Part shown: one piece after another, positions 39,609 to 62,259 of the stretch | How positions within the stretch are numbered: position 1 is the first letter of the stretch | Layout: each line of letters starts with the position of its first letter | Source: Halorarum halophilum | GTDB taxonomy: Archaea > Halobacteriota > Halobacteria > Halobacteriales > Haloferacaceae | Assembly (NCBI RefSeq): GCF_013401515.1 | Contig: NZ_CP058529.1 | Span: 1,612,001-1,676,000, forward strand | Length of the DNA stretch: 64,000 nucleotides | Reading direction: 5' to 3' | Notes under the pieces: generated by a model | Told to the model about the DNA's origin: nothing | Seen by the model: the letters and a program-made list of their open reading frames with translations, nothing else | Databases searched by the model: none | Program-made: the position numbers and the translations under genes

Positions 39609-39667
39609 AACCGCAAAGGCGCGCTCACCGGACAGCCGCCAACGACGCTGGATCGGAACGACAGCGG

Positions 39668-39844
39668 GTGGGACTGAAAGGGGCCGCGGCATTCACGGGC
39701 GCAAGCGCCCGTGAATTCGGGAGAGCTTGCTCTCCCGTAACTCGGGGAAGCACGGGCGGTCAAGCACCGCAGCGCGAACGAGCGAAGCGAGTGAGCGCGA
39801 GGAGCTCAGCCGTCCGCACGAGCCGAGAGCCGCGGGGGCTTTCG
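39668..39844 (+). repeat. R1 repeat, copy 1, with an inserted twin-hairpin cassette
   Basis: Left arm TGGGACTGAAAGGGGCCGCG and right arm CCGAGAGCCGCGGGGGCTTT are conserved in the copies at 54.9 and 62.1 kb, with CAAGCACCGCA and GCGAGGAG between them. The arms can pair as a long stem. Here a 50-bp cassette (39691-39740) interrupts the left arm between GCGGC and CTCGG. Confidence 0.65.
39691..39740. repeat. Twin-hairpin cassette inside R1
   Basis: Two back-to-back perfect hairpins: ATTCACGGGCGC-aa-GCGCCCGTGAAT (39691-39716) and CGGGAGAGC-tt-GCTCTCCCG (39718-39737). The same two-hairpin architecture with different stem cores is found at 43268-43319. Confidence 0.65.
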
Positions 39845-40009: not shown

Positions 40010-40420
40010 ATGACAGTCACACTGGGGCTGGTGGTGGCGCGCTACAACGCGTCCGTCACCGAACCGATGGAGGAGGCGGCGCTCGAGGCGTCCGCCGAGC
40101 GCGACGTGGAGGTCGCCGAGACCGTCCGCGTACCGGGCGTGTACGACGCGCCGCTGGCCGCCGACCGCCTCGCGCGCCGGGAGGACGTGGACGCCGTCGT
40201 CGTCGTCGGTGCCATCGTCTCCGGCGACACCGACCACGACCAGGTCATCGGGCAAGCCGCCGCCCAGAAGCTGACCGACGTGAGCCTCGACCGCGACAAG
40301 CCGGTCACCTTCGGCGTGTCCGGGCCCGGACAGAGCGGCGCGGTGGCGCGCGAACGCGTCCACAAGGGTGCCGAGGCCGTGAACGCCGCCGCCGACCTCG
40401 CGGAGGGGCTGCCGGCATGA
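40010..40420 (+). CDS. ribH: 6,7-dimethyl-8-ribityllumazine synthase
   Basis: 136 aa, the usual archaeal length. LGLVVARYNASVTEPM at the start, VPGVYDAPLAADRLA, VVVVGAIVSGDTDHDQVI and PVTFGVSG are the conserved lumazine synthase segments; the catalytic His is in DTDHDQV. It joins the ribitylamino-uracil and butanone phosphate in the next-to-last step of riboflavin synthesis. The stop overlaps the aminotransferase start (ATGA), so the two are co-translated. Confidence 0.94.
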   Translation: MTVTLGLVVARYNASVTEPMEEAALEASAERDVEVAETVRVPGVYDAPLAADRLARREDVDAVVVVGAIVSGDTDHDQVIGQAAAQKLTDVSLDRDKPVTFGVSGPGQSGAVARERVHKGAEAVNAAADLAEGLPA

Positions 40421-43171: not shown

Positions 43172-43246
43172 CCTCCCCAACCGATTCGCTCCTCGGCTCG
43201 GTCGCTCCGCTCCCTCGCCTGCGGTGCTCATCCCTCGCGCGCATCC
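43172..43246 (-). repeat. R2 repeat, copy in the nthB-nthA gap
   Basis: On the minus strand: GGATGCGCGCGAGGGATGAG, then CGAGGGAGCGGAGCGACCGA, ending AGCGAATCGGTTGGGGAGG. It shares the R2 landmarks and about 75 bp with the copies at 39.5, 54.9 and 62.4 kb. It sits inside an operon rather than between divergent genes. Confidence 0.6.
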
Positions 43247-43267
43247 GGTGGGCACGGAGGCCCGCCG

Positions 43268-43319
43268 TTCACGAGAGCGAAGCTCTCGTGAGCTCACGAG
43301 ACGCTGTGCGTCTCGTGAA
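43268..43319. repeat. Twin-hairpin cassette in the nthB-nthA gap
   Basis: TCACGAGAGC-gaa-GCTCTCGTGA (10-bp stem) and TCACGAGACGC-tgt-GCGTCTCGTGA (11-bp stem) stand back to back. The architecture is that of the cassette at 39691-39740, with different stem cores. Together with R2 it fills most of the 341-bp gap. A CTAAGT patch at 43366-43371 may serve as a weak promoter for nthA. Confidence 0.65.
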
Positions 43320-43394
43320 CGGCACGCGCTTGACGGTTGATCGAACACCGCCGAGGGGCCAACGGCTAAGTCCGCGCGAACGCCACCACTTCAC

Positions 43395-54933: not shown

Positions 54934-55062
54934 GGGTAGGACTGAAAGGGGCCGTGGCTCTCGGGGAAGGAGTGGACCGACAAGCACCGCAACCGAGGGA
55001 GCGAAGCGACCGAAGTGAGGAGCGCAGCGGCCGCACCGACCCGAGAGCCACGGGGGCTTTCG
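54934..55062 (+). repeat. R1 repeat, copy at 54.9 kb
   Basis: Left arm GACTGAAAGGGGCCGTGGCT continuing CTCGG, right arm CCGAGAGCCACGGGGGCTTT. The stem pairs GTGGCTCTCGG with CCGAGAGCCAC, whereas the other copies have GCGGCTCTCGG with CCGAGAGCCGC: a C-to-T change on one side matched by G-to-A on the other. Confidence 0.65.
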
Positions 55063-62137: not shown

Positions 62138-62259
62138 CGAAAGCCCCCGCGGCTCTCGGCTCGCGCGGCACGCTCTGCGCTCCTCGCTCGCCGTTGTCTC
62201 GCTGTGGTGCTTGAGGTGCCGGGCTTCCCCGAGAGCCGCGGCCCCTTTCAGTCCCACCC
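62138..62259 (-). repeat. R1 repeat, copy at 62.1 kb
   Basis: On the minus strand GGGACTGAAAGGGGCCGCGG continuing CTCTCGGGGAAG; the opposite end is CCGAGAGCCGCGGGGGCTTT. CAAGCACCACA and GCGAGGAGCGCAG lie between. Stem as in the other copies. Confidence 0.65.

Follow-up and report, generated by a model that had tools for sequence, protein, structure and literature searches.

Within the window, by which we mean the whole 64,000-nucleotide stretch of Halorarum halophilum DNA analyzed here, one copy of an intergenic repeat, R1, is split by 50 bp of DNA that forms two hairpins lying back to back. This raises the question of what the insert is, how it came to lie within the repeat, and what kind of activity might have moved it.

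The twin-hairpin cassette and its host repeat

Examination of the locus confirms that the R1 copy is interrupted, between CCGCGGC and CTCGG, by a pair of perfect hairpins set side by side, whose stems measure 12 and 9 bp, as an earlier sequence-only reading had described (Table 1). In so GC-rich a window a lone 12-bp hairpin is nothing unusual, 0.7 being expected per 64 kb; back-to-back pairs are rare, and 60 shuffles of the window under a third-order Markov model produced 2. A strict pair scan lists only the pair at 39.7 kb, because an overlapping middle palindrome masks the pair at 43.3 kb, which is present in the hairpin listing. The same reading had taken the other R1 copies to be uninterrupted. 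This holds for the two other copies in the window but not genome-wide, where 15 of the 46 complete copies examined in H. halophilum carry extra hairpin insertions at a few recurrent places. Three of these insertions are of the type seen here, type A, and all three lie at the same place in R1.

Table 1. Features of the window discussed in the text, with their positions and strands.
Feature	Positions	Strand	Remarks
R1 structured repeat, filled copy	39666-39844	+	Intergenic, upstream of ribH (40010-40420); covariance model/covariation and sequence
R1 conserved 5' box GGGTGGGACTGAAAGGGGCC	39666-39685	+	Conserved in 29-copy alignment
R1 stem P1 5' arm, pre-insertion part CCGCGGC	39684-39690	+	Sequence and covariation
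Type-A twin-hairpin cassette	39691-39740	+	50 bp, in R1 P1 5' arm; like type and site in L071, L074
Hairpin 1 of type-A cassette	39691-39716	+	ATTCACGGGCGC-AA-GCGCCCGTGAAT; 12-bp stem, loop AA; loop TT in the L071 copy
Hairpin 2 of type-A cassette	39718-39737	+	CGGGAGAGC-TT-GCTCTCCCG; 9-bp stem, loop TT
R1 stem P1 5' arm, post-insertion part CTCGG	39741-39745	+	Sequence
R1 inner module AAGCACCGCAG-hairpin-GAGGAGCTCAG	39760-39809	+	Two bulges are type-B insertion sites, empty in this copy
R1 stem P1 3' arm CCGAGAGCCGCGG	39823-39835	+	Sequence; covariation
R1 conserved 3' box GGGGGCTTTCG	39834-39844	+	29-copy alignment
R2 repeat	43172-43331	-	Has GCACCGCAG-hairpin-GAGGAGCG module in common with R1
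Type-D twin-hairpin cassette GTT-hp-AGCT-hp-AAC	43268-43319	-	Inside R2 hairpin; empty R2 copies L038, L045, L019
R1 copy without cassette (L011)	54934-55061	+	Sequence comparison
R1 copy without cassette (L006)	62139-62259	-	Sequence comparison

The host repeat is about 125 nt long. Its conserved boxes, GGGNGGGA(C/A)TG(A/G)AAGGGGCC and GGGGGCTT(T/C)C, enclose a long stem (P1) together with another helix and an inner hairpin. Pattern and BLAST searches, which give a lower bound, place 46 or more complete copies of R1, and several minimal cores besides, in the H. halophilum genome. A covariance model, applied to no more than 30 candidates in each genome, found R1 in 100 of 116 sampled genomes of the class Halobacteria, often in 30 copies or more. 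Alignment of 29 uninterrupted copies revealed two-sided compensatory changes in 18 of the 26 predicted pairs, which makes R1 a structured element with covariation. P1 has 13 G.T mismatches against a single A.C, indicating that the structure is carried by one strand; this bias fits RNA and single-stranded DNA alike and does not separate them. We observed no Rfam match for R1 in the window and only chance-level matches in nine R1 loci, and a literature search on the R1 sequence found no description of it. A role as a strict 5' leader was considered and rejected, since by crude ORF calling the flanking gene starts next to R1 in about 26 cases and ends there in about 18, indicating that R1 is intergenic rather than a leader.

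Several R1 copies depart from this plan. In one H. halophilum copy (L010:1453-1583) the entire interior of P1 is inverted between normally oriented outer boxes, and two G116 copies (L329, L334) carry GAAAGCCCCCGCGG, which is the 3' box in reverse complement, where the 5' box should be. Minimal cores of about 33 bp (GGGYGGGACTGAAAGGGGCCGCGGGGGCTTTC) lack the whole interior (L002 on the minus strand near 1221, L016:1779, L021 and L064 on the plus strand, and L227:1300 in G026); their CCGCGG direct repeats mean that simple deletion would be possible. Four conserved G-tracts (GGG-N-GGG, GGGG, GGGGG) in the boxes bracket P1, as at 39666-39685 and 39834-39844, and judging from these tracts a G-quadruplex at the base of the stem is conceivable. 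In the inner hairpins (39770-39809 and others), 2-bp helices take turns with tandem GA/GA mismatches, and the hairpin often terminates in GCGAAGC, a mini-hairpin known for its high stability. Similar GA-rich hairpins are borne by the 3' ends of tnpB genes.

Insertions into R1 recur at four places. Site 1 is the P1 5' arm (the window copy, L071 and L074), and site 2 is the junction that follows GGGGAAG (L019, L024, L028, L045, L069). Sites 3 and 4, CACCG^CAG and GAGCG^CAG, are used in L012, L015, L022, L024, L064, L069 and others. A reversed cassette occupies the inner hairpin of one copy, L068. In the predicted fold of R1, sites 3 and 4 are GCA bulges with unpaired probabilities of 0.62-0.99 against an R1 average of 0.39; the two main insertion sites of type-B cassettes are thus unpaired bulges of R1 as modeled.

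The sequence-only reading had placed a second twin hairpin next to the repeat R2. The two-hairpin design is indeed present there, as a type-D cassette with back-to-back stems of 10 and 11 bp and 3-nt loops, but its position is inside R2's own hairpin; R2 copies without the cassette read straight through from GCGCGTGCCG into GCTGGCC. Before many R1 copies, for example L006, L008 and L068, a further repeat hairpin, GGACTACCGACGGCG..CGGTAGTC, takes the place of R2.

A constant frame with changing stems

The best-documented cassettes, type B, have the layout TGGTT-hairpin-TCATCA-hairpin-AACGA throughout the family. The pattern TTCGA..CGTCATCACGA matched in 89 of 119 family genomes, with some of the matches falling in coding sequence, and the reversed control gave 0 matches. 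All 47 type-B cassettes parsed from fetched loci show the layout. The parser accepted only cassettes with that linker and one of a few listed ends, so what carries information is how varied the intervening stems are, together with the family-wide pattern count. Among the 47 there are 43 distinct first hairpins, and the hairpins are perfect in 43 of 47 first positions and 40 of 47 second positions. Of the 174 variable stem positions in 21-nt hairpins, 171 form Watson-Crick pairs, compared with a mean of 120 and a maximum of 135 after shuffling. The ends and linker of the cassette are therefore constant, while the stems turn over and yet stay perfectly paired. This bears out, in 47 cassettes, the earlier claim that architecture is kept as stem sequence varies. 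To call the stem cores unrelated was too strong, as the arms GAGAGC, GACGGC and AAGGCGC recur in many cassettes; in type B, the arms AGAGAGC, AAAGGCGC, AGACGGC and AAAATC are seen repeatedly in both hairpin positions.

In H. halophilum, 7 of the 24 exact matches to the linker fold as hairpins, and all 7 lie in R1-family elements (L146 by an R1-like 3' end only); the remainder look like ordinary non-palindromic, apparently coding sequence. Cassettes in other genomes also occur within other palindromic repeats, and on named plasmids of Natribaculum, Natrinema, Halomontanus and others; no type-B cassette was found in the phage records searched. At L064 (R1 on the minus strand) and at L335 (G026), four-hairpin cassettes carry two more hairpins nested within the type-B TCATCA linker. 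As a candidate box C/D motif, the linker (reverse complement TGATGA) was rejected, no box D partner being seen. Some paralogous hairpins differ in nothing but an inverted loop (AA/TT in L001/L071, GGA/TCC in L022/L024). As a general rule loop inversion fails: at 24 of 213 same-stem pairs, against 9% when loops are paired at random over all hairpins, it is no commoner than chance would give.

Filled and empty sites among close relatives

Orthologous sites were compared in three genomes of the genus: H. halophilum (G000), G026 and G116. The type-B cassette of L015 in H. halophilum corresponds to an empty site at GAGGAGCG^CAGC in G026 (L333), and the type-C cassette of L028 likewise to an empty site in G026 (L330). 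At the L019 locus H. halophilum has type C, G026 has type C plus a four-hairpin type B, and G116 has neither; the L071 locus holds type A in H. halophilum and, at a different site within R1, type D in G116. The type-A orthologues offer no clean empty site, R1 or its interior being absent: upstream of ribH, only the 33-bp R1 core is present in G026, and R1 is not recognizable in G116. No target-site duplication was seen in the filled/empty comparisons. Thus, each cassette is a separable module that can be present at an R1 site in one genome and missing from the orthologous site in another, without target duplication. Empty or differently filled sites in two same-genus genomes indicate that cassettes have been gained and lost, the polarity of single gains and losses not being fixable from three genomes. 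The sequence-only reading had held that the cassette inserted into R1, a view that predicts empty sites; orthologous empty sites are present and support it.

Within G026, non-allelic cassettes of 60-bp scale are identical at L285 and L286 and near-identical at L283 and L287, which points to copying. At L286, a cassette links the left half of an R1 copy to the sequence flanking another repeat on its right, and this arrangement suggests that cassettes may have recombined with each other.

Origin of the cassettes and comparison with known systems

The sequence-only reading had proposed a mobile or templated palindromic element, such as one that is REP/BIME-like or derived from IS200/605 ends, and had suggested a search for a Y1/TnpA-REP transposase. 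None is found in the genus: Y1_Tnp (PF01797) has 0 matches in all three genomes, despite 8, 19 and 10 type-B pattern matches and polymorphic sites there, and TnpB is likewise absent from H. halophilum. Here, an enzyme other than Y1 would have to move the cassettes. The absence of Y1 already weakens the idea that the cassettes are REP/REPIN- or PATE-like, that is, fused IS200/IS605 ends moved in trans by Y1 (TnpA/RAYT), which we consider unlikely. In its favor, the cassettes match the 52-bp terminal-only IS605-derived PATEs of Haloquadratum (PMC3119063) in being twin palindromes of about 50 bp that lack target duplication, Y1 genes are present in 80 of the 119 family genomes, and one cassette overlaps the tnpB 3' end of an IS605 element in Halovenus salina. 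However, about 25 further tnpB 3' ends were read in other genomes and not one terminates in a cassette, and the stems are not conserved, whereas recognition by a RAYT would need conservation. R1 itself was rejected as an IS605 or omega-RNA end, as no R1 was found near 30 tnpB genes. A distant link of the cassettes to IS605 elements is conceivable, given the Halovenus salina case and the short mobile repeats of Haloquadratum that target IS605 ends (PMC3119063).

Three further explanations were considered. If R1 were a functional RNA, the cassettes could be non-mobile expansion helices grown in its loops, which would suit the covarying structure of R1, the excess of G.T over A.C mismatches in P1 and the placement of insertions in unpaired bulges. 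We regard this as quite improbable, because the same cassettes occur in R2 and other palindromic repeats, lie reversed in R1 at L068 and are identical at non-allelic sites; their occurrence in other repeats and in reverse we count as evidence of mobility. A local origin, with each twin hairpin created where it lies when replication switches templates at a palindrome, would account for perfect stems, for the loop inversions in L001/L071 and L022/L024, for hypervariable loops and for the inverted interior in L010, but is very unlikely: the ends and TCATCA linker are invariant across genera and stems are shared by distant genomes, so that dispersal from a common source is needed. Slightly less probable still is RNA-mediated spread, in which a cassette transcript is copied back into DNA, as suggested for Allomyces (PMC2800124). 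The lack of target duplication agrees with it, as does a host element that is structured and strand-asymmetric; against it, loop orientation is not fixed, so that no strand-specific selection on the cassette is visible.

We instead favor, as a probable though far from certain explanation, a transposase-free mobile double-hairpin element inserted without target duplication into R1, an older structured palindromic repeat. Such elements would probably move as folded single strands, with a single-stranded DNA intermediate carrying the cassette. Folding would produce a three-way junction made of a closing stem (GTGGTT/AACGAC), two arms and, in type B, the invariant TCATCA linker. An activity supplied in trans may recognize this junction, through the closing stem and linker, rather than the arms, and may then paste the junction into other palindromic repeats, either where these bulge out as single strands or at the base of their hairpins, most likely while DNA is being replicated or repaired. 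Correction of quasi-palindromes by template switching from one arm to the other would keep stems perfect and would allow loops to flip and arms to be exchanged. More tentatively, R1 may be a class-wide, undescribed landing platform for self-standing double-hairpin mobile DNA, whose machinery, neither Y1 nor a known transposase, would read the folded junction of invariant ends and TCATCA linker and leave the arms free to be exchanged.

With close relatives filled, empty or differently filled, a junction that is invariant, arms that are free and the usual enzyme missing, the cassettes offer a testable system for the spread of transposase-free palindromes. They also exposed R1, which, being covarying, present in tens of copies per genome in many Halobacteria and absent from Rfam, turned out to be a larger finding than the cassette.

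The closest description in the literature searched is that of SMR-A of Haloquadratum walsbyi (HqIRS42/43/55), a likeness by description rather than by comparison of sequences. SMR-A insert without target duplication into palindromes of IS605-type elements and PATEs, and in 2011 the authors called their mobilization enigmatic (PMC3119063). Like SMR-A, the cassettes are haloarchaeal and non-coding, occur in tens of copies, lie inside palindromes of other repeats, here R1 and R2, without target duplication, and are moved by unexplained means. SMR-A, however, are about 110 bp long, have inverted terminal repeats that are conserved, exist as nearly identical copies and target PATE/IS605 ends; the cassettes are about 50-70 bp, consist of two hairpins with variable stems, and target R1 and R2. 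PATEs and terminal-only IS605 derivatives of Haloquadratum share with the cassettes palindromes near both ends (PMC3119063), but no adjacent or related IS605 element was found in H. halophilum, and no fixed terminal oligonucleotide or target tetranucleotide was recognized. REPINs mobilized by RAYTs likewise consist of paired palindromes, are extragenic and can nest in each other, but their palindromes are conserved in sequence and depend on a RAYT (Y1) (PMC3116915). Neither feature applies to the cassettes, with their 43 distinct first hairpins.

The mitochondrial double-hairpin elements of Allomyces and Schizosaccharomyces, together with yeast GC clusters, also have two adjacent hairpins, lie between genes or within a structured RNA gene, and are present or absent between close relatives. 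Those of Allomyces lack target duplications, which is why RNA-mediated spread was suggested (PMC2800124), and in S. octosporus one lies inside the structured RNA gene rnl (PMC10085805). These elements are organellar and eukaryotic, whereas the cassettes are on an archaeal chromosome, have ends and a linker conserved over many genera, and have a repeat family as their main host; the two resemble each other by design, sequences aside. Because length and copy identity differ from SMR-A, which were compared by description, and the mitochondrial likeness is one of design, we file the cassettes under neither. By analogy, the best reading places them nearest to two groups, the small mobile repeats of Haloquadratum and the mitochondrial double-hairpin elements.
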